DNA from: Acidobacteriota bacterium
GTDB taxonomy: Bacteria > Acidobacteriota > Terriglobia > Bryobacterales > Bryobacteraceae
Length of the DNA stretch: 52,622 nucleotides
Direction: 5' to 3'
NCBI GenBank assembly: GCA_016871015.1
Contig: VFZX01000008.1
Coordinates: 1 to 52,622 of the forward strand
The notes beneath the pieces are model-generated. The model searched no databases. It had not been told where the DNA came from and saw only the letters and a program-made list of their open reading frames with translations. The position numbers and the translations under genes are program-made. Numbering within the stretch: position 1 is the first letter of the stretch; each line of letters begins with the position of its first letter. Positions 173 through 14,111 of this stretch are shown here, in pieces.

Positions 173-961
173 ATGCGGCGCGCTTCCGGCATCCTGTTGG
201 TCCTGCTGTTGGTGTGTGGAACCGCTCTGCTTGCCCAACGCGGACGCCGCTCCTTCTTCGACGAAGAGGACAACCCGGCGCCAACGCCGGCCGACGCTGG
301 AGAGAAGACCGAGTACCAGTTCGCGCGGCTGCGTTATGGCGGCTACCGCGGGTACTACCGGGGCGGAAGCTGGGCCACCGACTATCCCAAAGCGGACCGC
401 CAGTTCGTCCAAGGCGTCCGGCGGCTGACACGCCTGCACACGCGTAGCGTCGAGCAGGTGGTCGATATCGATTCCGACGAGCTGTTCAACTACCCGTGGA
501 TCTACGCGACCGAAGTCGGCCACTGGGACCTCGACGAGCGCCAGGCCCGGCGCATGCGCGAGTACCTGGACCGCGGCGGCTTCATGATGACCGACGACTT
601 CCATGGAACCTATGAGTGGGACGCGTTCCTGCAGGGCATCCAAAAGGTGTTCCCGGACAAGACCATCGTTGACCTCGAGGACGGTGACCCGATCTTCCAC
701 GTCATCTACGATCTCAAGGAGCGGCCCCAGGTCCCTGGGATCCAGATGTTCTACAGCGGCCGCCACTACGAGAAGGACGGCGTCGAGCCGCGCTGGCGGG
801 CCATTTTCGACGACAAGCACCGCGTGGTGGTCGCCATCTGCCACAACATGGATCTCGGCGACGCCTGGGAATGGGCCGACCTGCCACAATACCCGGAGAA
901 CCTGGCTTCCGTGGCATACCGGATCGGGGTAAACTACATCGTTTATTCGATGACACACTAG
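173..961 (+). CDS. DUF4159 domain secreted protein
   Basis: 262 residues with a signal peptide at about 1-21 (MRR, then a Leu/Val-rich core ending LLAQ). The rest resembles DUF4159, a family of flavodoxin- or glutamine-amidotransferase-like folds usually found beside MoxR/BatA/von Willebrand operons. The block around residues 125-175, with FMMTDDFHGTYEWD and FHVIYDL, is the typical core. The start is fixed by AAGGAGA a few bases upstream of ATG 173. It is the first gene of a tightly packed operon; the next start is 11 bp beyond its stop. The function of the family is not established. A role in the cell envelope is inferred from the signal peptide and neighbours. Confidence 0.8.
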   Translation: MRRASGILLVLLLVCGTALLAQRGRRSFFDEEDNPAPTPADAGEKTEYQFARLRYGGYRGYYRGGSWATDYPKADRQFVQGVRRLTRLHTRSVEQVVDIDSDELFNYPWIYATEVGHWDLDERQARRMREYLDRGGFMMTDDFHGTYEWDAFLQGIQKVFPDKTIVDLEDGDPIFHVIYDLKERPQVPGIQMFYSGRHYEKDGVEPRWRAIFDDKHRVVVAICHNMDLGDAWEWADLPQYPENLASVAYRIGVNYIVYSMTH

Positions 962-972
962 GTGGGGGCCCT

Positions 973-3237
973 GTGTTCGAATTCCTATTCCAATATCCGC
1001 GTACCGTTTTCTCCAAGGGCGAAATCGTTCTCCTGGCCGGATGGCCGAAGTGGCTCCTGGCCGCGTTGATCGTGGCGGGTGCGGCCGGGCTGGCGTGGCT
1101 GATCCGCGCCCGGCTGCGCGACGCCGCAGAGACCGTGCGATCCGGGTGGCGTCCCGTGGTGCTGTGGGTGCTGCAGTCGACCATGCTCGCCGTGGTCCTC
1201 ACGCTGCTGTGGCAGCCTGCCTTGCTCGTTTCGACGCTCAAGCCGCAACAGAACGTGGTGGCAGTGCTCGTCGACGACTCCACCAGCATGGCGATTGCCG
1301 ACGAAGGCGGCACGCGGTTCGACCGGGCCAAGGCGACGCTCGACGGCGGAGTCCTCGCCGGGCTGCAGAAGAAGTTCCAGACGCGGATCTACCGCGTCAG
1401 CGACACGATCGAACGGATCCAGAAGGTGGACGGGCTGACGCCCAAGACCAGCGCCACGCATATCGCCGAAGGCATGAAGCGCGTGGTGGCCGAGGCCTCA
1501 GGCCTGCCGTTGGGCGCCATTGTCCTGCTGTCGGACGGTGCCGACAACGCGGGCGGCGTCGATCTCGAGACGATCACAGCATTGCGCAACAGGCGCGTCC
1601 CGGTCCACACGGTCGGATATGGCAAGGAACATCCCGACCGCGACCTCGAAGTCGTGGATGTCCAAATTCCGGTGAAGGCACTGGCGGACTCAAAGCTCGC
1701 CGCACGCGTTAACTTCACCCAGCGCGGGATGACGGGACGCCGGATGAAGCTCGTGCTGCGCGAAGGCGGCAAGGTGCTGGCATCGCGCGACATCACGATC
1801 GGCGGTGAAGGTGTGCGGCTCCAGGAGAACCTGGTATTCAGCGCGGGAAACGCGGGTGCCAAAGCCCTGCAGGCCGGATTCGAGCCGGCGCAGGACGAGC
1901 AGAACCTCAAGAACAACCAGACCGCCCGGCTGCTCAACGTCGAGAACCGCAAGCCGCGCGTCCTTTACATTGAGGGCGAGCCGCGCTGGGAGTACAAGTT
2001 CATCCGCCGCGCGCTCGAAGAGGACAAGAACGTCACGGTGGTGTCGATGCTGCGGACGACCCAGAACAAGATCCTGCGCCAGGGAGTCGGCAACGCGAAG
2101 GAGCTTGAAGAGGGCTTCCCCGACACGGTCGAGGAGTTGATGGACTACCAGGGCGTCGTGATCGGCACGGTCGAGGCCGGCTACTTCAGCACCAAGCAGA
2201 TCGAGCTGCTCAAAGTCTTCGTCGACCGGCGTGGCGGCGGGCTGCTCTGGCTCGGCGGCCGGACCGGATTGGCCGACGGGGGCTGGGGCAAGTCGGCTCT
2301 CGCCGAATTGATGCCCACGGTGCTCCCCGACCGCCGTGGAACCTTCGTGCGTGAGCCCGCCAATGTCGAGCTGACACCGATGGGCGCGCAGAGCCTGATC
2401 ACACGGCTCGAAGAGGATCCAGGCAAGAACGCCGAGCGCTGGAAGAAGCTGCCCTACCTGGCGGATTACCAGGATCCCGGAACTCCCAAGCCGGGCGCCG
2501 CGGTGCTCGCCACGTTTAATCCAGGCGGCAAGGGAGCGCAACCGCTGCTGGTGGTCCAGAACTACGGCCGGGGACGAACCGCCATCTTCGCCACTGGCGG
2601 ATCCTGGCGCTGGCAGATGCTGCAAGACAAGTCGGACCAGTCGCACGAGATGTTCTGGGCGCAGCTCCTGAGGTGGATCGTGGGCGACACACCGGGACGG
2701 CTGCTGGCTTCGACTCCCAAGCCGATGCTGCTCGACGACGGACAGGTGAAGCTGTCGGTGGATGTGCGCGACAAGAACTACCTGCCCGCGTCCGACGCGC
2801 GCGTAGAGGCGAAAATCCTTGGACCCGAAGCATCCGGCGCAATCGTTGAAATGCAGCCCGATCCAGTGAATCCTGGAGTCTTCCACGCCGAGTGGACTGC
2901 CGAAAAGCCGGGGTCCTACATTGCCGAGATCACGGCCAAGCGGGGCGAAGAGGAAGTGGGGCGCGACGCTGTTGCGTTCCAGCGGCAGGACGGAGTGGCG
3001 GAGAACTTCCAGACGGGCCAGAACGTCGAACTGCTGACCCGGCTTGCTGAGCAGACCGGCGGACGCTACTGGAAGCCGTCGGAGGCTTCGAAGCTTCCCG
3101 AAGAGATCACCTATTCCGACGCCGGGATCAGTATTCGCGAAACGCGCGACCTTTGGAACATGCCTGCCGTGTTCCTATTAATACTGGCGCTGCGCGGAAG
3201 CGAATGGCTGCTGCGCCGGCGATGGGGTATCGTCTAG
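973..3237 (+). CDS. Membrane protein with von Willebrand A and GATase-like domains
   Basis: 754 residues from GTG 973, preceded by a G-rich stretch. An in-frame ATG at 871 would lie deep inside the DUF4159 gene and is rejected. Two N-terminal membrane segments (about 20-43 and 58-85) are followed by a von Willebrand A domain whose metal-binding site begins DDSTSM near residue 101. A class I glutamine-amidotransferase-like domain follows (PRVLYIEGEPRWEYK near 328), then a C-terminal part with one last membrane helix at about 728-745. This is the usual layout of large periplasmic partners of MoxR/BatA systems. GATase-like domains of this type normally lack amidotransferase activity and may bind ligands; that is family knowledge, not shown here. 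The stop is 2 bp before the next start. Confidence 0.8.
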   Translation: MFEFLFQYPRTVFSKGEIVLLAGWPKWLLAALIVAGAAGLAWLIRARLRDAAETVRSGWRPVVLWVLQSTMLAVVLTLLWQPALLVSTLKPQQNVVAVLVDDSTSMAIADEGGTRFDRAKATLDGGVLAGLQKKFQTRIYRVSDTIERIQKVDGLTPKTSATHIAEGMKRVVAEASGLPLGAIVLLSDGADNAGGVDLETITALRNRRVPVHTVGYGKEHPDRDLEVVDVQIPVKALADSKLAARVNFTQRGMTGRRMKLVLREGGKVLASRDITIGGEGVRLQENLVFSAGNAGAKALQAGFEPAQDEQNLKNNQTARLLNVENRKPRVLYIEGEPRWEYKFIRRALEEDKNVTVVSMLRTTQNKILRQGVGNAKELEEGFPDTVEELMDYQGVVIGTVEAGYFSTKQIELLKVFVDRRGGGLLWLGGRTGLADGGWGKSALAELMPTVLPDRRGTFVREPANVELTPMGAQSLITRLEEDPGKNAERWKKLPYLADYQDPGTPKPGAAVLATFNPGGKGAQPLLVVQNYGRGRTAIFATGGSWRWQMLQDKSDQSHEMFWAQLLRWIVGDTPGRLLASTPKPMLLDDGQVKLSVDVRDKNYLPASDARVEAKILGPEASGAIVEMQPDPVNPGVFHAEWTAEKPGSYIAEITAKRGEEEVGRDAVAFQRQDGVAENFQTGQNVELLTRLAEQTGGRYWKPSEASKLPEEITYSDAGISIRETRDLWNMPAVFLLILALRGSEWLLRRRWGIV

Positions 3238-3239
3238 AC

Positions 3240-4172
3240 ATGGGCCGATTGAAGAACACGGTTGCGCTCGCGTTGCTGCCCGCGCTGGCCCAGGGTGCCG
3301 CGCACTTCGTCACCGTCGCCGGACTCGGCGGCGAGGCCGAGTACGAGCAGCGGTTCACATCCCTGGCCAAGGAGGCCGACAAGATCCTGCGGGGATCCGG
3401 CGGCGACAACCGGATCCATACGTTGTCCGGCCCGGATGCAACCCGAGAGAAGCTTTCGGGCGCGTTGGCGGCGGTCGCCAAGGAAGCCAAGCCGGACGAT
3501 CAATTCGCGCTGCTGCTGATCGGCCACGGGAGCTTTGACGGGTCCGACTACAAGTTCAATCTGAAGGGACCCGACGTCACGGCCATCGAGCTGGCCGCGA
3601 TGTGCGACCGGATCCAGGCCGGCAAGCAACTGGTGGTGAACGCCACCAGCGCCTCGGGCGGATCGCTGCACGCGCTGCAGCGGGCCAACCGGGCGGTGAT
3701 CACGGCCACCAAGTCCGGCACCGAGAAGAACGCCACCGTGTTCGCGCGCTACTGGGTGGAGGCGCTTCGCGATCCGAATGCCGACACGGACAAGAACGAG
3801 GCGATCTCGGCGCTCGAAGCCTACCGCTTCGCGGACCAGAAGACCACCAACTTCTACGAGACCGCCAAACGCCTGGCCACCGAGCATCCGATGCTCGAAG
3901 ACACCGGGAACGGCGAGGCAACCCGCACTCCAGGCAAGGATAACGACCAGGGAATGCTGGCAGCGCGGATCGCGGTGGTCCGGATCGGGGCCGCGCAGAA
4001 GGCCGCGGCGGATCCGGCCAAACGCGAACTGCTCGCAAAGAAGGAAGCACTGGAAGTCGAGATCGACGCGCTCAAGCGCGACAAAGCAGCGATGCCCACG
4101 GCTGAGTACCGGAAGAAGCTCGCGTCGCTGCTGCTGGGCCTGGCAAAGCTCCAGGAGGAGATCGACAAGTAG
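3240..4172 (+). CDS. Secreted caspase-fold (C13/C14-like) protein lacking the catalytic cysteine
   Basis: 310 residues from ATG 3240, two bases after the previous stop; a signal peptide covers about 1-20. The N-terminal domain has the clan CD layout: a hydrophobic strand then GHG (residues 95-97) in FALLLIGHGSFDG, and a second strand LVVNATSASGGS (131-142) where the catalytic Cys normally sits. Here that position has Ser/Ala, and the only Cys in the whole protein, C122, is elsewhere. A DPNADTDKNEAIS stretch resembles the acidic loop seen in caspase-like proteins. The C-terminus is a Lys/Glu/Ala-rich probable coiled coil. It is therefore either an inactive pseudo-protease or a Ser variant. Its place between a vWA protein and a TPR metallopeptidase suggests a scaffold or sensor role in the envelope operon; this is inference. 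Confidence 0.7.
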   Translation: MGRLKNTVALALLPALAQGAAHFVTVAGLGGEAEYEQRFTSLAKEADKILRGSGGDNRIHTLSGPDATREKLSGALAAVAKEAKPDDQFALLLIGHGSFDGSDYKFNLKGPDVTAIELAAMCDRIQAGKQLVVNATSASGGSLHALQRANRAVITATKSGTEKNATVFARYWVEALRDPNADTDKNEAISALEAYRFADQKTTNFYETAKRLATEHPMLEDTGNGEATRTPGKDNDQGMLAARIAVVRIGAAQKAAADPAKRELLAKKEALEVEIDALKRDKAAMPTAEYRKKLASLLLGLAKLQEEIDK

Positions 4173-6368
4173 GTGCGCCTGTTCTTCGCAGTCCTCATCA
4201 CCGCGGCGGGGCTGGCCGCGAATCCGGACCAGTGCCGGTCGCTCGAAAAGCACGGCAAGAAGCCCGAGGCGCGGGCCTGCTTTCTGCAGCTCACGCGGTC
4301 CGGGGATCCCTTCATGCGCGCCGAGGGCCACTACGGGCTGCGGGCCTACAAGGCCGCGAACGATCAGTTCCGGCTGGCGGTGCAGCAGCAGCCAAAGAAC
4401 CCGGATATCCGCGTGCGGTGGGGACGGATGCTCGTCGAGCCGTTCAACCGCAACACCAAGGACGCGGCGGACCTTTTCTCGGAAGCACTGGAGATCAAGA
4501 AGGACCACGCCGGAGCGCTGATGGGATTGGCGCTGGCCGCCTCGGGGTCGTTTGAAGCCAAAGCCGAAGAGCTTGCCCGCAAGGCGCTCGAGGCCGATCC
4601 GAAGAACATCGAGGCGCACGAGCTGATCGCCAGCATGGCGCTAGAGGACAGCAACACGAAGAAGGCGGTCGAGGAGGCTGACGCGGCGATCAAGATCAGC
4701 CCGGAGGCGCTCGACGCGCTGGCAATCCGCGCCGCCGTCGAGATCATCGCGGACCGGCCCGCCGAGGAATGGCTCAAGCGCATCTACCAGGTAAACCCCG
4801 GCTACGGCGAGGCGCATCTCCTGATCGGGCACCACCTGGTGCTCAACCGCCGCTACGACGAGGCGATCGCGCATTTCCGGCAGGCGATCAAGCTGGATCC
4901 CGAGAACCTGCACGCGCAGTCGCAGCTCGGCATCCAGTTAATGCGAACCGGCCAGGATCAAGAGGCGCTGCGCCTGCTCAACGACGCGCATGACCGCGGG
5001 TTCCGGGAAGCGTCGACGACGAACTCGCTCAAGCTCCTCGACAGCCTCAGGAACTTCCTCACCTTCAAAACCGACACGACGGTTGTGAAGCTGCACAAGA
5101 AGGAGGCTGCCCTGCTCCGTGTGTACATGGAAGAGGAGCTGCGCAAGTGCATACGGACGTTCGAGAAGAAGTACAAGATGAAGCTCCCGCGTCCGGTCCA
5201 GTTGGAGGTCTACCCGGATCACGAGGATTTCGCGGTACGCACGATGGGAATGCCCGGCGTCGGGATCCTGGGCGTCACCTTCGGTGACGTGGTGGCAATG
5301 GACTCGCCGTCCGGCCGCCCGCCGGGGAGCTTCCATTGGGCGTCGACGCTGTGGCACGAGATGAGCCACGTGTTTGTCCTGGTGGCGACCAAGCACCGGG
5401 TTCCGCGCTGGTTCACCGAGGGACTGGCAGTTCACGAGGAGACGGCTACGAATCCTGAGTGGGGCGACCGCCTGACTCCGAGCATCCTCGCGGCCCTACG
5501 CGACAAAAAGCTGCTGCCGGTAGCGGAACTGGACCGCGGGTTCATCCGGCCGAAATATGAAGCGCAGGTGGTGGTGTCCTACTTCCAGGCTGGCAAGATC
5601 TGCGACTACATCAACGAGAAGTGGGGCTACGACACACTGCTGGCTATGATGCACTCGTTCGGTGCGCGCAAGACGACGCCCGAGGTGATCGAGCTGCACC
5701 TGAAGCTCAAGCCGGAGGAGTTCGACAAGCAGTTCCTGGCCTGGCTCGACGGCCACACGAAAAAGACCGTCGACGGATTCGGCGACTGGACCAAGAAGAT
5801 CAAGCAGGCGACTCAACTCAAGCGCGAGAACAAGCTCGACGAGGCGGTGAAGCTGGCGGTTGAGGCGCGGGACCTGTATCCGGACTACATCGAGGCCGCC
5901 AACGCCTACGAACTGCTCGCCGACGCCTATGAGGCTAAGAAGGACAAGAAGTCGGCGGCGGCCGAGCTGCTCAAGTACGCCAAAATGGGCGGGCGCGATC
6001 CAAAAGCGCTCAAGCGGCTGTCGCAAATGCAAGAGGAGCTGGGCGACCCGCGCGGGGCGGCTGCAACACTGGCGCGGATCAACTATGTCTATCCCGTGAA
6101 CGACGAGCCGCTTCACCGCCGCTTCGGCGACCTGTTGTTCAACCTCAAGGACTACTCCGGCGCGTTGCGTGAGTACAGCGCGGTGCTGGCCATGAGCCCG
6201 CTCGACCGGGCATCCGCGCACCACAACGTCGCCCGGACCCATCTCGCCATGGGGGACCGCGCCAAGGCTGAAGATTCCCTGCTCGAAGCGCTGGAGGCGG
6301 CCCCGAACTACCGCCCCGCGCAGAAACTCCTGTTGGAGCTTGAAGCTCAAAAGAAAGAGAAACCCTAG
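4173..6368 (+). CDS. TPR protein with peptidase MA-like gluzincin domain
   Basis: 731 residues from GTG 4173, which directly abuts the previous stop. AGGAGGAG at about 4152-4159 in the upstream gene is a strong ribosome site, so the pair is translationally coupled. A short hydrophobic N-terminus suggests export. Tetratricopeptide repeats fill roughly residues 20-290. A zinc-peptidase domain follows with HEMSH near 394-398 and the third ligand Glu in WFTEGLAVHEE about 20 residues later, the HExxH...E arrangement of the peptidase MA (gluzincin) family. More TPR-like helices fill about 540-725. TPRs bind protein partners, so the enzyme probably acts in a complex with the adjacent vWA or caspase-like proteins. 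The substrate is unknown. Confidence 0.8.
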   Translation: MRLFFAVLITAAGLAANPDQCRSLEKHGKKPEARACFLQLTRSGDPFMRAEGHYGLRAYKAANDQFRLAVQQQPKNPDIRVRWGRMLVEPFNRNTKDAADLFSEALEIKKDHAGALMGLALAASGSFEAKAEELARKALEADPKNIEAHELIASMALEDSNTKKAVEEADAAIKISPEALDALAIRAAVEIIADRPAEEWLKRIYQVNPGYGEAHLLIGHHLVLNRRYDEAIAHFRQAIKLDPENLHAQSQLGIQLMRTGQDQEALRLLNDAHDRGFREASTTNSLKLLDSLRNFLTFKTDTTVVKLHKKEAALLRVYMEEELRKCIRTFEKKYKMKLPRPVQLEVYPDHEDFAVRTMGMPGVGILGVTFGDVVAMDSPSGRPPGSFHWASTLWHEMSHVFVLVATKHRVPRWFTEGLAVHEETATNPEWGDRLTPSILAALRDKKLLPVAELDRGFIRPKYEAQVVVSYFQAGKICDYINEKWGYDTLLAMMHSFGARKTTPEVIELHLKLKPEEFDKQFLAWLDGHTKKTVDGFGDWTKKIKQATQLKRENKLDEAVKLAVEARDLYPDYIEAANAYELLADAYEAKKDKKSAAAELLKYAKMGGRDPKALKRLSQMQEELGDPRGAAATLARINYVYPVNDEPLHRRFGDLLFNLKDYSGALREYSAVLAMSPLDRASAHHNVARTHLAMGDRAKAEDSLLEALEAAPNYRPAQKLLLELEAQKKEKP

Positions 6369-6371
6369 TAC

Positions 6372-7400
6372 ATGCCTTCGACTTTAGGCGATACCACACT
6401 CGATTCCACTGAACTCCGCACACGCATCGAGCGCTTCCAGGCAGCGCAGGAACGGATCCTCGAACAGGTCCGCCGCGTGATCGTGGGCCAGGACGAAGTG
6501 ATCGAGCAGATCATGATCGCTCTGTGGGTGGGCGGACATTGCCTCATTACCGGACTTCCCGGAACAGCAAAGACCCTGATGGTCCGCACGATCGCCCAGA
6601 CCCTGGGCCTCGAGTTCAAGAGAATCCAGTTCACGCCCGACCTGATGCCGTCCGACATCACCGGCACCGACATCATCGAAGAGGATCCAACCACGGGACA
6701 CCGGCGCTGGACCTTCGTCCCCGGTCCGGTATTCGGCAACGTACTGCTGGCGGACGAAGTCAACCGCACGCCGCCCAAAACGCAGTCGGCGCTGCTTGAG
6801 GCGATGCAGGAGCGCTCCTGCACGGTCCGCGGGAACATCTACAAGCTGCCGAACCCGTTCTTCGTTCTGGCGACGCAGAACCCGATCGAGCTCGAAGGCA
6901 CCTACCCGCTGCCTGAAGCCCAGCTCGACCGGTTCCTGTTCAACACCGTGCTTGACTACCTTTCGGCAGACGAGGAAGTGAATGTCCTCGGTCTCACCAC
7001 GACCACGCACGAAGCCAAGGTGGAGGTTGTGACCAGCGCCGAGGAGATCCTGAGCTTCCAGCAACTGGTCCGCATGGTGCCGATCGCGGAGCCGGTCGCC
7101 CGCCACGCCGTGGACATCGTTCGGGCCACGCGCTCGTCGCTTCCCGGAGCGCCGGCGGTCATCAAGAAGTACGTGAACTACGGCGGCAGTGTCCGGGCCG
7201 CGCAGTTCCTCGCTCTGGCGGCCAAGGCGCGCGCGCTCGCCCGGCACCGCTACCATGTGTCCTACGAGGATGTCCGCGCTCTAGCGGTTCCAGTGCTGCG
7301 CCACCGCGTGCTGCTCAACTTCCAGGCGGAATCGGAGAAGATGAGCTCCGACGACCTGCTGAAGAAGCTGCTCGACGAAATGCCGCCGCCGAAGGGCTAA
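6372..7400 (+). CDS. MoxR-family AAA+ ATPase
   Basis: 342 residues, a full-length MoxR protein. Walker A reads GLPGTAKT near residues 60-67, Walker B NVLLADEVNR near 125, and the family motifs LLEAMQER and ATQNPIELEGTYPLPEAQLDRF follow, with the lid domain from about 250. MoxR ATPases act as cytoplasmic chaperones that load or remodel complexes of von Willebrand domain proteins. The immediate 3' neighbours (DUF58 and BatA-like) are the standard partners. It starts 3 bp after the TPR-peptidase stop and ends 4 bp before DUF58. Identity as MoxR is secure; the client complex is inferred. Confidence 0.95.
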   Translation: MPSTLGDTTLDSTELRTRIERFQAAQERILEQVRRVIVGQDEVIEQIMIALWVGGHCLITGLPGTAKTLMVRTIAQTLGLEFKRIQFTPDLMPSDITGTDIIEEDPTTGHRRWTFVPGPVFGNVLLADEVNRTPPKTQSALLEAMQERSCTVRGNIYKLPNPFFVLATQNPIELEGTYPLPEAQLDRFLFNTVLDYLSADEEVNVLGLTTTTHEAKVEVVTSAEEILSFQQLVRMVPIAEPVARHAVDIVRATRSSLPGAPAVIKKYVNYGGSVRAAQFLALAAKARALARHRYHVSYEDVRALAVPVLRHRVLLNFQAESEKMSSDDLLKKLLDEMPPPKG

Positions 7401-7404
7401 CCGG

Positions 7405-8292
7405 GTGCTGCAGCGCTTTCTCGACCCGCTTGTGCTAGCCCAGGTCGCGAGGCTCGACCTGATTGCGAAAACCGTGGTGGACGGCTTTGTCGCCGGACTG
7501 CACAGATCCCCCGACTTCGGATTCTCGCAGGAGTTCGCCGAGTACCGCTCTTACACGCCGGGCGACGACCTGCGCCACGTCGACTGGAGCGTCTATGCGC
7601 GCTCCGAGCGCTTGTACCTCAAGCGCTACCGGGGGGAGACGAACTCCCAGTTGAGCGTCCTCGTTGACGCGTCGAATTCGATGAGTTTCGCTTCAGGCAA
7701 GCTCAGCAAGATCGACTACGCCCGTTTCGCCGCAGCGTCATTGTTCTATCTGGCCAACGCACAACGCGACGCCGCCGGTCTGGTCGTGTTTGATGACGAA
7801 GTGCGGAACTACGTGCCTCCATCCACGCGCCAGGGCCAGTTCCACCGCCTGCTCCACGGAATCGAGCAAGCCGAGCCCCGCCTGCGGACCAACTATTCCA
7901 AGCCATTCCAGCACCTGATGGAGTTCCTGCGGCGGCGCGGCGTGGTGGTGGTCTTCTCGGACTTTTACGAGGAGCCGGAAACCGTGATCCGGTCGATCGA
8001 ACCGTTGCGGTTCCGCGGCAATGACGTCGTGCTGTTCCATGTGCTCGATCCGCGCGAGCTCGACCCGAAGATCAAGGATCCGGTGATCCTGGTGGATCTC
8101 GAGACCCAGGACAGCCTCGAGGTCACGCCCGACTACGCGCAGCGCGAGTACCGGTCAAAGATCACGGCCCACTGCGAGGCGTTGCGCCAGAAGGCCAAAG
8201 GGGCTGGGATGGACTATTACCTGATGGCGACCGACAAGCCCCTGGATGGGGCGCTGCACGAATATCTCAGCATCCGGTTGGGGAGGCTCTAG
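7405..8292 (+). CDS. DUF58 domain protein (MoxR partner, vWA-like)
   Basis: 295 residues from GTG 7405. The DUF58 signature GDDLRHVDWSVYARSERLY is present at about residues 52-70. A von Willebrand-like strand with LSVLVDASNSMSF follows near 83-95, giving a D-x-S-x-S metal site. No transmembrane helix is seen, so it is probably cytoplasmic. DUF58 proteins are nearly always encoded just after a MoxR ATPase, as here, and are thought to be its substrate or adaptor. The gene is 4 bp behind moxR and 3 bp before the BatA-like gene. Confidence 0.93.
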   Translation: MLQRFLDPLVLAQVARLDLIAKTVVDGFVAGLHRSPDFGFSQEFAEYRSYTPGDDLRHVDWSVYARSERLYLKRYRGETNSQLSVLVDASNSMSFASGKLSKIDYARFAAASLFYLANAQRDAAGLVVFDDEVRNYVPPSTRQGQFHRLLHGIEQAEPRLRTNYSKPFQHLMEFLRRRGVVVVFSDFYEEPETVIRSIEPLRFRGNDVVLFHVLDPRELDPKIKDPVILVDLETQDSLEVTPDYAQREYRSKITAHCEALRQKAKGAGMDYYLMATDKPLDGALHEYLSIRLGRL

Positions 8293-8295
8293 CGC

Positions 8296-10308
8296 GTGGG
8301 TCTGCTTTCCCCGTGGTTCCTTGGCGGTCTCCTGGCCGTGGGACTGCCCATCTACCTCCACCTGCTGCGGCAGCACAAGAGTACGCCGCTGCCCTTCGCC
8401 TCCCTCATGTTCTTCGAGAAGCGGACGCAGAGCTCGATCAAACACCGGCGGTTGCGTTACCTGCTGCTGCTCGCGCTCCGGATCGCACTGGTTGCCCTGC
8501 TGGCGCTGGCCTTCGCGAATCCGTTCATCAACCGGCAGGCGGGAGCCGACGCCGGATCGAGGAGGATTCTGGCGGTGGTCGATGAGTCTTTCAGCATGCG
8601 TGCGGGCAACCGGCTGGCCGATGCCAAGCGCGAGGCGCTGGCGCTGATCGATTCGCGGCGGCCTGCCGATCGGATGCAAGTGGGCGCTCTGGGGTCGAAT
8701 CTGCGGATGCTGACCGAGTCCATCCAGGATCCGGGTGAGCTGAAAGCGGCCGCCGGGAGCATCAAGGGATCGGATTCGCAGGCATCGTATGGTGAGTTGA
8801 CCCGCGCCCTGCGTTCGCTCGCGCAGGCATCGCCCGAGCCACTTGAGGTGCACCTCTACACCGACGCGCAAAAGTCCGCGCTTCCATCAAACTTCAGCGA
8901 CCTCCAGTTGCCGGGATCGGTGAAATTAATGGTCCATGCGGTAGCTGGGGAGAAACCAACTCCCAACTGGACCGTCCAAACAGTCACGGCGCCCTCTTCC
9001 GTGTGGGACACCAAAAAAGTCCGGATCCAGGCCACCGTCGCCGGCTTCGACACCCCGGCGGCGAAGCGCACGGTCACGCTCAACGTCAACGGACGCGCGG
9101 CGGCCAACAAGTCCGTGGATGTGCCGGCGAACGGCCGGGCGGCCGCTGAGTTCACGGGACTCGACATCCCCTACGGCGCGGCGAGGTGCGAGATCCGGAT
9201 CGACAGCGCGGATGCGTTCCCGCAAGACGACCGGTCGTTGTTCGCCGTTGAGCGGTCCGACCCGCGGCGCGTGCTGTTCCTGCACGAGGCGCGCGATACC
9301 AAGTCGCCGCTGTTTTTCCGGTCGGCGCTGGCGGCGTCGGCAGAATCGGGCTTCGCGCTTGAGGCGATGCCGGTGGAGCAGGCCGCGAATCTGACGCCGT
9401 CGAACTATGCGTTTACGGTGCTGTCGGATGTGATGGGCGTTCCGCCGCAGCTTGAGGAATCGCTCGCCAAGTACGTGCGGGCCGGCGGCGCGGTGTGGAT
9501 CGCGGCGGGCCCGAATCTCGCGCGGCGCCAGTCGGTCCCGCTGTTCGGCGAAGCGGTGAATGAGGGCAAATACTTCTCGCGCGCGGGAGCGATGTTCTCC
9601 ACCGTGGGCCAGATGGATGCGACGCATCCGTCGGTGTTCCGGGCTGCCCGCTGGGAGGGCGTGAAGTTCTACTACGTGGTGGACGTGAAGCCAGGACAGT
9701 CCCGGGTGGCCGGGCGGTTGAGCGACTCCACGCCTCTGCTCATGGAGAAGCGGATCGGCGAGGGCCGCGTGCTGGTGTTCACGTCGACGTTTGACAACCT
9801 GGGCAACGACTTTCCCCGCACGCCGCTGTTCGTGCCTTTTGTGGAACAGACTTCACGCTATCTGTCGGGCATCGAGGAGCGCGCCCCGTCGGTTCTCGTG
9901 GGTGCGTTCGTCGACTTGCGCACGGCCCGCGAGAGGTCGGTATCGGTGGACGTGATTGATCCCGACGGCCAACATCCGCTCTCGCTTGCCGAGTCCACTT
10001 CGGCGCAGAACTACCAGTTGCCGCGCGAAGGCTACTTCGAGGTGCGGCGGGCCAATGGCCGGCATGAGTTGATCGCTGCGAATCCGGACCGCCGCGAATC
10101 GGATCTGGCGCCTGTCCCCAAAGAGAATCTCGACCTGTGGACGGGCAGTTCTTCGGGCGCCGCGGGAGGCAATAGCGGAGGGCGCGCGGCTGAAGAGCGG
10201 AAACCGTGGCCGCTTTGGTGGTACTTTATGTTTTTCCTGTTGCTGTCCGCGGTGGCCGAGTCGGTCCTCGCGGCCAAGTATTTAGGTGTACAAAGGGAAG
10301 AGGGATAG
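8296..10308 (+). CDS. BatA-like membrane protein with vWA domain
   Basis: 670 residues from GTG 8296. The N-terminus is the BatA/aerotolerance-regulator region: a first helix (LSPWFLGGLLAVGLPIYLH), then HKSTPLPFASLMFFEKR, then a second helix near residues 55-75. A vWA-type strand (ILAVVDESFSM) carries D-x-S-x-S near 95-101. The middle holds immunoglobulin-like and GATase-like sequence. One membrane helix closes the protein at about 640-662 (WWYFMFFLLLSAVAESVLA), after a Gly/Ser-rich linker. It belongs to the MoxR/DUF58 complex and would present a large periplasmic part. It is separated from the DUF4175 gene by 14 bp holding that gene's ribosome site. Confidence 0.85.
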   Translation: MGLLSPWFLGGLLAVGLPIYLHLLRQHKSTPLPFASLMFFEKRTQSSIKHRRLRYLLLLALRIALVALLALAFANPFINRQAGADAGSRRILAVVDESFSMRAGNRLADAKREALALIDSRRPADRMQVGALGSNLRMLTESIQDPGELKAAAGSIKGSDSQASYGELTRALRSLAQASPEPLEVHLYTDAQKSALPSNFSDLQLPGSVKLMVHAVAGEKPTPNWTVQTVTAPSSVWDTKKVRIQATVAGFDTPAAKRTVTLNVNGRAAANKSVDVPANGRAAAEFTGLDIPYGAARCEIRIDSADAFPQDDRSLFAVERSDPRRVLFLHEARDTKSPLFFRSALAASAESGFALEAMPVEQAANLTPSNYAFTVLSDVMGVPPQLEESLAKYVRAGGAVWIAAGPNLARRQSVPLFGEAVNEGKYFSRAGAMFSTVGQMDATHPSVFRAARWEGVKFYYVVDVKPGQSRVAGRLSDSTPLLMEKRIGEGRVLVFTSTFDNLGNDFPRTPLFVPFVEQTSRYLSGIEERAPSVLVGAFVDLRTARERSVSVDVIDPDGQHPLSLAESTSAQNYQLPREGYFEVRRANGRHELIAANPDRRESDLAPVPKENLDLWTGSSSGAAGGNSGGRAAEERKPWPLWWYFMFFLLLSAVAESVLAAKYLGVQREEG

Positions 10309-10322
10309 TAGAAGGAGGCTCA

Positions 10323-13300
10323 ATGAACGCGTTGGACCAACTGAACGCCTATATCGCCCGCCTGGAGCGGCAACTGAAAATCGGCGCCGCCGCGCGCGGA
10401 GCCGCGATCCTGCTCTTTGCGGCGCTGGCGGCCACCGTGATTCTGGTGATGATCACCAATGCGTTCGCCTTCTCCGACGGCTCGATGACGCTCGCGCGCG
10501 TGGCCCTGTGGCTGACCCTGTTTGGGACCATCGCGCTGGCGATCTGGCTTCCCTTGCGGCGGCTGACCCGCAAAGTTGCGGCGGCGCGGGGCGAGCAGAC
10601 TTTCCCGCAGTTCGAGGAACGGCTGTTGACAGTCGCGCACCGGGCGGAAGCGGCGCCCGCGGATCCGTTCGTGCATCTCCTGGCGGCGGACACGCTTGAA
10701 GTAGCGCGGAGTGCCGAGCCCGCGCAGGTGTATCCGTGGGGACGCGTGGCCGGAGCGGCGGCGGCGGGCGGCGGTGCATTGATGGTCCTGCTGTGGCTGA
10801 TCACCGCGGGTCCGGGATTCTGGGGCCATGGAGCTTCCCTGCTCTGGGCAGGTCCGTCAAAGGCGGGAGTCCAGCCGTTCTATGAAGTGAAAGTCCAGCC
10901 GGGCGATGCGGCGGTACGGCGCAAGGGCGACCAGTTGATCACGGCGGAAGTGGTGGGCATGACACCGGAAAAGGTGACCCTGTGGGCGCGCTATCATTCG
11001 GCGACCAAGTGGGAGACGGTGCGGATGCAGCCGCGGATGAACGGCACGGGGTTCGAGTTCCTGTTCGCGGGCCTGCCGGAGAGCGTCGAGTATTTCGCGG
11101 AGGCCAACGGCGTCCAGTCCAAGCACTACAATCTGCGTGCGGTGGATTTGCCGGGCGTCAAGAAGATCCGCGTGACGTACAACTATCCGGGGTGGATGGG
11201 ATCCAAGCCGGTGGTGGATGAGAAGGGCGGCGACCTGCGCGCGGTGGAAGGCTCCGAGGCACTGCTCGAAATCGAGATGGACCGTCCGCTCGAGAACGGG
11301 CGGCTCATGGTGGATGGCAAGGAGACTCCGCTCACCAAGGGCTCAGGCAACGTGGTCACCGGGAAGATCCGGATCGAGAAGGACGGGCTCTACCATATCG
11401 CCGGGGCTGACAACGGGCAGATTGTGCGGCTGAGCGACGACTACTTTATCGAGGCGCGCAAAGAGAATCCGCCGACGCTGAAGATCAGCAAGCCGGGCCG
11501 CGACTATAAGGCGAGTCCGATTGAAGAAGTGTCGATCGCGGTGTCGGCCGAGGATGACTTCGGACTGCACGAGGTCAACCTGCACTACTCGGTGAATGGC
11601 GGTGAGGAAAAGACCGTACCGCTGCTCAAGCAGCGTGGCGTGATGGATGTCAACGCGTCGCATGTGCTGGCACTTGAGGACTACAACATGGCGCCGGGCG
11701 ACCTGGTGAGCTTCTACGCGACCGCCAAGGACGCGCGGACCCAGATCCGGACCGACATGTTCTTCATTGAGGCGCAGCCATTTGAGAAGGAGTACCGGCA
11801 ATCGCAACAGTCCGGTGGCGGCGGTGGAGGCGGTGGAGGAGAGGAGGACCAGAACCAGATCTCGCGGCGGCAAAAGGAGATCATTTCGGCAACCTGGAAC
11901 CAGCAGCGCGACAGGCGGGCATCGGCGGCCGAGACTGGAGAAGCGGCGCGGTTTTTGTCCGAGGTCCAGGCCAAGCTCCGCGACCAGGCCAAATCGCTTG
12001 CCAAGCGCATGCAGGCGCGCGAGCTGTCGCAGCAGAATGCGCAGTTCATGAGCTTCACCAAGGAGATGAACACGGCGGCGGAGGCGATGGACAAGGCGGC
12101 GGGTGAGCTTAAGGAACGTAAGTGGAAGGAAGCGATGCCGCATGAGCAGAAAGCGCTCCAGCACCTGTTGCGCGCCGAAGCGACGTTCCGGGATATCCAG
12201 GTGGCGTTCGGACAGCGCGGAGGCGGCGGTGGTGGAGGCGGCGGTGCGGCGCGCGACCTCGAGAATCTGTTCGACCTCGAGCTCGATACAGAGAAAAACC
12301 AGTACGAGACCGGTCAGCAACAGCAGTCGGCGCAGGAACAGAAGAACCGCGAAGTGGATGAGGCGCTGCAGAAGCTCGAACAGCTCGCGCGCCGGCAGCA
12401 GGAACTCGCCCAACAACAGCGCAACGGACAGCAGACGGCGCAGCAGAAGTGGCAGCAGGAGATGTTGCGGCGCGAGGCCGAGCAGCTCAAGCGGCAGATG
12501 GAGCAGATGCAGCGCGGTCAGCAGGGACAGCAGTCCCAGCAGGCGCAACAGGGACAGCAAGGACAGCAAGGACAGCAGGGGCAGCAAGGCCAGCAAGGGC
12601 AGCAAGGGCAGCAAGGGCAGCAAGGCCAGCAAGGGCAGCAGGGGCAGCAAGGACAGCAGGGGCAACAGGGACAGCAGTCCGCCCAAAACGGCATGCAGCG
12701 CGGGGCGATGGATCCGCGAGTCCAGCAGGCCATCGAGCGGCTGCGCCAGGCGACCGAAGACATGCGCCAGTCCGAGAGCCAGAAGGCCGCGGAGAGGATG
12801 CAGGAAGCCCAGCGGGCGTTGCGCGGGTTGCGCGGCGAGCAGACCACCGATCGCATGAACCGCGTGGCCGAGGATGCCAACCGGCTGGCCGACAAGCAGC
12901 AGGATCTTTCCCGCCAGCTCCGGCAAATGTACGGCAATCAGAACGGACCCCAGCCCTCGCGGGAGCAGCAACAGCAGGTGGCGGCTGATCGCGACAAGAT
13001 GGTCGAGGAGCTGAAGAAGCTAGAGCGCGAGATGCAGGATGCGATCCGCGATCTGCAGTCGACCAACCGCACGGCGTCGTCCAAGCTCCGCGAGGCGCTT
13101 GGTGAGATGCAGCAGAGCGAAGTCGGGCTGCGCATGAAGTACAGCGCGGAAGCGATCCGGCGCGGGTACGGGCAATACGCGTGGATGCGCGAAGCTCCGG
13201 TCACGCAGGCGATGGAGCGGATGCGCGAGCAGGTCAAGGAAGCCCAAGCCGCGGCCGGCGGCAAAGAAGGCCAGACCGGGCAGAAGCCCGGGGACCAGGG

Positions 13301-14111
13301 CCTCGAAAGCGCGTTGAACCGCGTCGAGCGGCTCCGCCAGCAGATGGAAGCGCTCACGCGCGCACGCCAGGGCCAGCGTGGACAGCAGGGGCAAGGGCAG
13401 CAGCAAGGGCAAGGCCAGCAGGGACAGGGACAGGACCGGCAGTCCGCGCAACTCGGCCGCGATGGCCAGGGCCAGCAGGGACAACAAGGCCAGCAAGGGC
13501 AAGGACAGCAGCAAGGCCAAGGACAGCAGGGTCAGCAAGGACAGCAGGGACAGCAGGGCCAGGGTCAACAACAGGGCCAAGGACAGCAAGGCGGGCAGCA
13601 GCAGGGTGGCCAGCAGGCTGGCGGGCGCGGCGGGAATGGCGGCGACCGCGGATTCCAGGACACCCGTGGCGGCGGTGAGCGCGGCTGGAACGACGGCTAC
13701 ACCGCGATGAACCGCGGAGGCTTCCGCCCCGATCCCGGACAGGCGCCTGCTCCCGGAGTGCTCGGCGGCCGGCTCGATACCGAAGAGCGGCTTCTCCGCG
13801 AGGGTGCACGGGATCTGTCGCAGCTCCGCCAGTCGCTGAGTGAGAATCCTGAGGTCAACCGCGAAGTCGCTGACTTGATCCGCGAGATGCAACAATTGGA
13901 TCCGTCGCGGTTCCCCGGAAATCCCGAAATGGTCGAGCGGCTGCGGAATCAGGTGTTAAGCCGCCTGGAGCAGCTCGAGCTGCAGCTTCGCCGCAAGGTG
14001 GAGGAACAGGGCGCTGGCCCGGTCCGGGCGGAGTCGTCGGTTCCGGTGCCGAGCGGCTACCAGGAGTCGGTCGCGGAGTATTTCCGCCGGCTCAGCCGTG
14101 GTGGAAAATAG
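10323..14111 (+). CDS. DUF4175 family membrane protein with Gly-Gln-Gln repeat tracts
   Basis: 1262 residues. AAGGAGG just upstream of ATG 10323 decides the start; the in-frame extension to 10206 overlaps the BatA-like gene and is rejected. Three membrane helices lie at about 20-52, 58-80 and 142-165. A beta-rich region with Ig-like sequence follows to about residue 490. From there on the protein is helical and Gln-rich: a Gly9 run near 498-506, another near 634-642, a regular GQQ tract at 732-785, and a second Gly/Gln tract at about 1017-1100. DUF4175 proteins accompany MoxR/BatA operons in several phyla; function unknown. Members have a long C-terminal coiled-coil region, but the repeat purity here is striking. 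The tracts may be length-variable. Confidence 0.85.
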   Translation: MNALDQLNAYIARLERQLKIGAAARGAAILLFAALAATVILVMITNAFAFSDGSMTLARVALWLTLFGTIALAIWLPLRRLTRKVAAARGEQTFPQFEERLLTVAHRAEAAPADPFVHLLAADTLEVARSAEPAQVYPWGRVAGAAAAGGGALMVLLWLITAGPGFWGHGASLLWAGPSKAGVQPFYEVKVQPGDAAVRRKGDQLITAEVVGMTPEKVTLWARYHSATKWETVRMQPRMNGTGFEFLFAGLPESVEYFAEANGVQSKHYNLRAVDLPGVKKIRVTYNYPGWMGSKPVVDEKGGDLRAVEGSEALLEIEMDRPLENGRLMVDGKETPLTKGSGNVVTGKIRIEKDGLYHIAGADNGQIVRLSDDYFIEARKENPPTLKISKPGRDYKASPIEEVSIAVSAEDDFGLHEVNLHYSVNGGEEKTVPLLKQRGVMDVNASHVLALEDYNMAPGDLVSFYATAKDARTQIRTDMFFIEAQPFEKEYRQSQQSGGGGGGGGGEEDQNQISRRQKEIISATWNQQRDRRASAAETGEAARFLSEVQAKLRDQAKSLAKRMQARELSQQNAQFMSFTKEMNTAAEAMDKAAGELKERKWKEAMPHEQKALQHLLRAEATFRDIQVAFGQRGGGGGGGGGAARDLENLFDLELDTEKNQYETGQQQQSAQEQKNREVDEALQKLEQLARRQQELAQQQRNGQQTAQQKWQQEMLRREAEQLKRQMEQMQRGQQGQQSQQAQQGQQGQQGQQGQQGQQGQQGQQGQQGQQGQQGQQGQQGQQGQQSAQNGMQRGAMDPRVQQAIERLRQATEDMRQSESQKAAERMQEAQRALRGLRGEQTTDRMNRVAEDANRLADKQQDLSRQLRQMYGNQNGPQPSREQQQQVAADRDKMVEELKKLEREMQDAIRDLQSTNRTASSKLREALGEMQQSEVGLRMKYSAEAIRRGYGQYAWMREAPVTQAMERMREQVKEAQAAAGGKEGQTGQKPGDQGLESALNRVERLRQQMEALTRARQGQRGQQGQGQQQGQGQQGQGQDRQSAQLGRDGQGQQGQQGQQGQGQQQGQGQQGQQGQQGQQGQGQQQGQGQQGGQQQGGQQAGGRGGNGGDRGFQDTRGGGERGWNDGYTAMNRGGFRPDPGQAPAPGVLGGRLDTEERLLREGARDLSQLRQSLSENPEVNREVADLIREMQQLDPSRFPGNPEMVERLRNQVLSRLEQLELQLRRKVEEQGAGPVRAESSVPVPSGYQESVAEYFRRLSRGGK
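12516..12677 (+). repeat. In-frame 9-bp tandem repeat (GQQ)18 in the DUF4175 gene
   Basis: Eighteen consecutive 9-bp units of the form GGN-CAR-CAR encode xQQ triplets, fifteen or more being GQQ. The units differ mainly at third positions (GGA/GGG/GGC, CAG/CAA), so the array is partly diversified rather than freshly amplified. Slippage would change protein length by whole triplets without a frameshift. Confidence 0.95.
13371..13620 (+). repeat. Second Gly/Gln-rich repeat tract in the DUF4175 gene
   Basis: This tract of about 83 codons mixes GQ, GQQ and GQQQ units, interrupted once near the middle by DRQSAQLGRDG. It is less regular than the tract at 12516-12677 but uses the same codon set, so both may have grown by the same slippage process. 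Confidence 0.85.

Follow-up and report, generated by a model that had tools for sequence, protein, structure and literature searches.

A putative C13-like pseudo-peptidase with an invariant histidine, conserved in a MoxR-VWA operon of Acidobacteriota

Described pseudo-peptidases and MoxR-VWA systems

Bat, or aerotolerance, operons group genes for MoxR, DUF58 and BatA proteins. Pseudo-peptidases of clan CD that lack the catalytic cysteine are likewise known. According to a survey of bacterial orthocaspases, 858 of 9,994 are pseudo-orthocaspases, with the dyads YS, YA, FS, YN, HA and QC, and the bacterial pseudo-peptidases with serine for cysteine come mainly from cyanobacteria and alphaproteobacteria; the word ‘Acidobacteria’ is absent from that main text (PMC6426788). 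Deletion of a pseudo-orthocaspase of Synechocystis is reported to increase tolerance of oxidative stress (PMC7889975). For SERA5, in which serine takes the place of cysteine, a non-enzymatic role has been reported (PMC4671257), and metacaspase 4 of Trypanosoma brucei (TbMCA-4) is reported to be inactive yet functional as a pseudopeptidase (PMC6657590). Furthermore, inactive caspase domains are reported to be frequent in MoxR-vWA conflict systems, which are ternary and defined by a VMAP, iSTAND, FtsH or beta-propeller third component (PMC7159879).

Here, we analysed a window of 52,622 nucleotides, that is, the whole stretch of acidobacterial DNA under study, in which a gene of a tightly packed operon encodes a protein that keeps the clan CD histidine and lacks the cysteine. 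Its family resembles the pseudo-orthocaspases in combining a prokaryotic caspase fold with a substituted dyad, in which the substitution is often Cys to Ser; however, the commonest reported change among the latter is His to Tyr together with Cys to Ser, whereas here the histidine is invariant (PMC6426788). Besides, pseudo-orthocaspases belong to the C14 p20 group, whereas the acidobacterial family appears nearer to C13. TbMCA-4 shares the substitution of catalytic residues (PMC6657590), but it is a metacaspase of a eukaryotic parasite and not a bacterial operon protein. The likeness to legumain and other C13 peptidases extends to the predicted fold, the HG-type histidine motif and the nucleophile column at a strand end; by contrast, all 142 family members lack the catalytic cysteine, and the C13 model does not match the window protein. 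Coupling of MoxR with vWA proteins recalls the conflict systems (PMC7159879), but MoxR is accompanied here by DUF58 and BatA proteins, and the pseudo-peptidase is encoded on its own, with its own signal-peptide-like start; Pfam scans covering all seven genes of the operon plus the following open reading frame named no VMAP, iSTAND, FtsH or beta-propeller component, though Pfam may not have a model for each of these. The window has MoxR, DUF58 and BatA in the order of the Bat operons, with additional upstream genes for DUF4159, VWA/GATase1-like, pseudo-peptidase and TPR-metallopeptidase proteins.

In the open literature that we searched, with most subscription journals lying outside it, we found no description of this histidine-retaining family or of its operon, and no mention of DUF4159. 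What is notable in the present case is the invariant histidine, the wide spread in the phylum and the conserved MoxR-VWA operon. Our analysis suggests that an old enzyme turned into the binding part of a cell-envelope machine. We assign a probability of roughly 0.6 to the whole of this reading, namely, that in a MoxR-VWA system of the envelope a conserved C13-like pseudo-peptidase acts as the module for binding or scaffolding, and regard its pseudo-enzyme part, taken alone, as quite probable. With this family, the conversion of an enzyme fold into a structural part can be put to the test, and it gives an entry point to this type of MoxR-VWA operon.

Predicted fold and the place of the catalytic cysteine

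The features of the pseudo-peptidase gene are as follows.

3240-4172, forward strand: legumain-like pseudo-peptidase gene, 310 amino acids, ATG to TAG
3522-3530, forward strand: GHG at residues 95-97, just after strand 88-95; H96 is the histidine of clan CD
3603-3605, forward strand: C122, the sole cysteine, in helix 115-123
3633-3665, forward strand: VVNATSASGGS, residues 132-142, with S137 at the probable place of the catalytic cysteine (alignments, column counts)
3783-3818, forward strand: loop of EF-hand type (D182-x-D184-x-N186-x3-S190-x2-E193) that runs into helix 191-208

Read by eye, residues 1-20 form a signal-peptide-like segment with a basic start, a hydrophobic run and an A-rich end. 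The AlphaFold2 model, built from 55 sequences, has a mean pLDDT of 94.1 and a pTM of 0.90, and residues 1-20 are the only ten-residue blocks with pLDDT below 90. In a Foldseek search against the PDB, the best match was legumain 4n6o (E 3.9e-8), and VIA-align superimposed 197 residues on legumain 4nol_A (Z 20.9, rmsd 2.5), with metacaspase 4 next at Z 19.6 and lower values for GPI transamidase and MALT1. The predicted fold is that of clan CD (legumain/caspase type), with legumain closest; the caspase-like fold proposed in the first-pass annotation is thus borne out by the structure prediction and placed nearer to legumain. The C-terminal helices 259-280 and 287-309 lie mostly beyond the range matched to known folds.

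Taken alone, the window protein matches no C13, C14 or caspase model of Pfam or NCBIfam, and C13 is not found at E values up to 1, while a profile search against PDB sequences gave nine matches up to E 10, several of them chance ones to judge by their names (for example, ACE2). Among 55 members from the window's class, Pfam C13 (PF01650) matches 18 with E no higher than 1 (best 1.8e-8), C14 matches seven (best E 0.0011), legumain ranking first by fold, and caspase_w_EACC1 matches 20; the curated C13 cut-off is exceeded in two of 61 genomes, both times at the place of the orthologue. The 8.66-Mb genome from which the window derives contains one match to the pseudo-peptidase. A separate caspase_w_EACC1-type match in the same genome (L177, G000:C57:21-473) has E 2.9e-17, below the curated cut-off.

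In clan CD, the histidine and the cysteine are usually placed just after core strands of this kind. Indeed, the GHG motif, with the H96 codon at 3525-3527, directly follows strand 88-95, matching the HG motif at a core-strand end that is expected of the clan, whereas S137 (codon AGC, 3648-3650) comes just after the following core strand (129-136), where the clan would be expected to have its cysteine. Alignment by hhalign of the family profile with 17 Cys-bearing acidobacterial caspase domains gave a probability of 99.6 and put S137 opposite the cysteine with no gap nearby; these domains, drawn from 30 scanned loci, had been picked for the pattern of both His and Cys and hence were selected for having the cysteine. 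The register is the same in alignments with a Pseudomonas C13 peptidase (38.9 bits) and with metacaspase 4, where the cysteine is mutated to alanine in the entry used, whereas GSU0716 sets A138 rather than S137 at the cysteine, with a one-residue insert before SG. By three of the four alignments examined, S137 would occupy the place of the catalytic cysteine.

The first-pass annotation, which had reported a GHG kept at 95-97, a strand reading VVNATSASGGS without a nucleophile cysteine, and C122 as the only cysteine, upstream of that motif, was correct in these respects, but its numbering of the serines as S138 and S142 has to be amended: they are S137, S139 and S142, and residue 138 is alanine. 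C122 was also considered as a displaced nucleophile and rejected: the model has it in helix 115-123, and only six of the 55 class members have cysteine there, against 45 with leucine. Column 138 contains a cysteine in 14 of the 142 members of the phylum set (TSCSG and the like; for example, L014, L018, L034, L035, L036 and L050).

The pattern D-x-[DN]-x-[DNS]-x3-[STD]-x2-E is present at residues 182-193 in 141 of 142 members, and a nearly identical one in at least six of the 17 Cys-bearing caspases, a lower bound because the caspase sequences used ended 100 residues after the cysteine; this EF-hand-like loop is perhaps calcium-stabilised. The model of a member with glutamate at 137 (L136; pLDDT 90.9) superimposes on metacaspase 4 at Z 20.7 and on legumain at Z 20.6, so that the fold is predicted to stand without a nucleophile at this position.

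Distribution, gene neighbourhood and a proposed role

A pseudo-peptidase match is found in 54 of 61 genomes, the window's own included, and is full-length without inner stops in 53 of these, the match in G008 being in two pieces. Among relatives that carry a name, the closest lie on MAG contigs of acidobacteria, several of them labelled Bryobacterales or Terriglobia; the phylum and class of the window are accordingly taken as Acidobacteriota and Terriglobia. Across the phylum, 99 of 297 sampled genomes have a match at E up to 1e-3: 85 at E 3e-62 or better, one C-terminal fragment (G216) and 13 weak matches that may be ordinary caspases; 85 of 297 is a lower bound because at most seven candidates per genome were scored. 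Outside these genomes, 42 stretches with the pattern on viral contigs included no relative, and plasmid records yielded two, the Pseudomonas C13 peptidase and a copy on a Gemmatimonadota plasmid (Gemmatirosa), where the relative lies amid VWA/GATase1-like, TPR-metallopeptidase, DUF4159, MoxR and DUF58 matches. The Gemmatirosa copy apparently occupies two reading frames (L181 5819-5980, then from 5989), through either a frameshift or a sequencing error.

Conservation was counted in two sets. That of the window's class comprises 55 distinct members of 58 loci, the window's own copy included, and the phylum set comprises 142 distinct members of 148 loci, after removal of a fragment (L148) and the copies L031, L032, L042, L059 and L065; left out beforehand were the loci of G008, G046, G052 and G055 in the search of 61 genomes and those of G149, G168, G177, G186, G228 and G281 in the search of 297. 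Alignment A2, with L136 as its first row, gathered the 24 rows picked for having no glycine at 140 (mostly F); on the tree, 22 of them form one clade, whereas the other two, L088 and L144, belong to the main family. The operon was recounted with a second clade of 22 members and a main family of 120. All members of the second clade (for example, L136, L127, L131, L103 and L139) come from outside the window's class.

Within the window, the pseudo-peptidase is the third of seven genes that follow one another in the same orientation, separated by 11, 2, 0, 3, 4 and 3 bases. Its neighbours, in order, are as follows.

173-961, forward strand: DUF4159 protein, the first gene of the cluster seen in the window (PF13709, 3.8e-48)
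973-3237, forward strand: membrane protein of VWA/GATase1_like domain composition (PF07090, 5.7e-9; VWA, 4.8e-4)
4173-6368, forward strand: TPR protein with Peptidase_MA_2 and a gluzincin-type HEMSH motif (Pfam)
6372-7400, forward strand: MoxR-type AAA+ ATPase (PF07726, 9.6e-61)
7405-8292, forward strand: DUF58/VWA protein (PF01882, 5.8e-47)
8296-10308, forward strand: BatA-type double-anchor VWA protein (PF07584, 8.1e-15; TIGR02226, 3e-18)

The VWA/GATase1-like gene, whose start was chosen by eye, ends two bases before the pseudo-peptidase ATG, and the GTG of the TPR-metallopeptidase, which also has a signal-peptide-like start, abuts the pseudo-peptidase stop codon. The MoxR protein scores 203.9 bits with AAA_3 and far lower, 45.2 bits, with bpMoxR; its only match among models of defence systems is a weak one to mad8, and the pseudo-peptidase matches none of those models. 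Scans for promoters and terminators returned no more than shuffled sequences did, and a tRNA scan found none.

Neighbours were counted at loci with sufficient room, on the same strand and by tblastn at E up to 1e-6. By this measure, the VWA/GATase1-like gene precedes the pseudo-peptidase at 132 of 137 loci, namely, at 115/115 of the main family (61/61 in the window's class and 54/54 elsewhere) and 17/22 of the second clade. MoxR lies downstream in all main-family loci counted (50/50; 21/21 in the window's class and 29/29 elsewhere) and in none of 20 from the second clade. Downstream counts for the TPR-metallopeptidase are 60/60 in the window's class, 37/52 at the other main-family loci and 0/22 in the second clade; it separates the pseudo-peptidase from the MoxR side in 97 of 112 main-family loci, and in 14 of the 15 others MoxR follows closely instead. 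HExxH occurs in every one of the 50 metallopeptidase loci that extend 2600 bases or more downstream, by a loose pattern for which chance matches are possible; a stricter pattern finds it in 90 of 105, the 15 misses being loci with less than about 1.75 kb downstream. In five second-clade loci (L102, L121, L129, L133 and L143), a match resembling the TPR-metallopeptidase replaces the VWA/GATase1-like gene upstream.

We propose that the pseudo-peptidase would be exported and work outside the inner membrane, where it would not hydrolyse peptides; rather, the old active-site groove, shaped by H96 and perhaps by a calcium-stabilised loop too, would bind a peptide or protein segment. It would act as a recognition or scaffold subunit beside the membrane VWA/GATase1-like protein, its most constant partner, in a machine presumably powered from the cytoplasm by the MoxR ATPase and its DUF58 partner. 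This machine would probably serve to mature a protein complex of the envelope or to control its quality. In the window's class, its likely catalytic member is the TPR-metallopeptidase, whose gene follows directly downstream. Gene neighbourhood does not prove contact between the products.

Alternatively, the pseudo-peptidase could be a dedicated substrate adaptor of the adjoining TPR-metallopeptidase. The zero-base spacing of the two genes, their adjacency throughout the window's class and the upstream metallopeptidase-like match in the five second-clade loci devoid of the VWA/GATase1-like gene are all in favour of such a partnership. However, the metallopeptidase cannot be an obligatory partner because it went undetected downstream in 15 of the 52 other main-family loci and in all 22 of the second clade, and the constancy of the VWA/GATase1-like gene in the main family, together with its presence at 17 of 22 second-clade loci, also counts against this option, to which we give limited credence.

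Variation at position 137 and the fate of the active site

Within the window's class, H96, D100 and G140 are each present in 55 of 55 members, S139 in 54 and S137 in 53, with alanine in the other two; a further count for the class found serine at 137 in 61 of 63. Throughout the phylum set, G95, H96, G110, D112, E193 and E215 are invariant (142/142). Position 137, by contrast, is occupied by serine in 123 members, glutamate in five, alanine and threonine in four each, asparagine in three, proline in two, glycine in one and cysteine in none, and all 19 members without serine keep H96. Glutamate and glycine are confined to the second clade (Glu 5, Ala 2, Gly 1), whereas the 11 main-family exceptions are threonine (4), asparagine (3), alanine (2) and proline (2). 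On an IQ-TREE phylogeny made without column 137 (a quick search with some long branches and a midpoint root), this position changed between serine and other residues at least 12 times, eight of these changes being forced by starred branches. The operon is retained in an alanine lineage (L037, L038).

Judged from these sequences, serine at 137 is preferred without being essential, and residues unable to act as a nucleophile are tolerated there. The first-pass annotation had left two readings of the missing cysteine, replacement by serine or conversion into a non-enzymatic binding module; since position 137 changed at least 12 times and H96 never, the evidence favours the binding module. The selection on the site that the annotation had deduced from the retained histidine finds support in conservation of H96, S139 and G140 beyond what chance would give, while NATSASGGS, for which it had raised the question of invariance among homologues, proved variable, with T-S-x-S-G as the conserved core in the window's class. 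The predominance of serine at 137 fits selection for a hydroxyl at this position and counts against the binding-module reading.

One alternative takes up the contrast between the variable position 137 and its invariant surroundings. The site might have been reused to carry out another reaction or to bind another ligand. The working groups would then be H96 and either the invariant acids D112 and E215 or a metal, and S137 would only line the pocket; the strict conservation of G95, H96, G110, D112, E193 and E215 would be expected in that case, but D112, E193 and E215 may equally be structural, and such reuse seems rather unlikely.

We also consider it unlikely that S137 is a working nucleophile, which would make this protein of legumain fold a Ser-His hydrolase or transacylase, in the window's class at least. 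The high frequency of serine at 137, together with the invariant histidine, speaks for this possibility, as does the register of T-S-x-S-G with the DACxSG-type loop of the enzymes. Furthermore, AGY codons, which would be expected from one-step descent from TGY, encode serine 137 in 107 of 123 rows, compared with 976 of 2537 serine codons across the family; yet serine codons at 139 lean towards AGY in the same way (120/138), which leaves the codon argument for descent from cysteine weak. Against a serine nucleophile stand, above all, the repeated changes to or from proline, glutamate, alanine, glycine and asparagine, among others, with the histidine always kept, and the precedents of serine for cysteine in SERA5 (PMC4671257) and TbMCA-4 (PMC6657590), both reported to be inactive. 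In a family of serine peptidases, the nucleophile should be conserved throughout, whereas 19 of 142 members lack serine here, a pattern still compatible with activity in some lineages. A bolder version is distinctly improbable: in the window's class, with its nearly fixed serine, S137 and H96 would form a working pair, a cysteine peptidase having given rise to a serine protease, ligase or acyltransferase, and the repeated losses elsewhere would mark pure-scaffold lineages; if true, the phylum would hold the whole path from a cysteine enzyme through a serine enzyme to a pseudo-enzyme. Finally, a decaying gene or a sequencing artefact, to which the missing cysteine and the two relatives in pieces (G008 and Gemmatirosa) might point, is rejected on the intact frames in 53 of 54 matched genomes, dN/dS ratios of 0.09-0.35 in the six pairs computed, and the conservation of the operon.

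Two minor observations concern other genes of the window. By eye, the DUF4159 (173-961) and GATase1_like (973-3237) proteins also seem to lack a cysteine at the elbow position, where we take the nucleophile to be expected; several enzyme folds encoded in this operon may be without a nucleophile. Downstream of the cluster, tandem repeats with CAG-rich units of 9-33 bases occur at 12502-12677 and 13467-13592, inside a DUF4175-like open reading frame (10206-14111).
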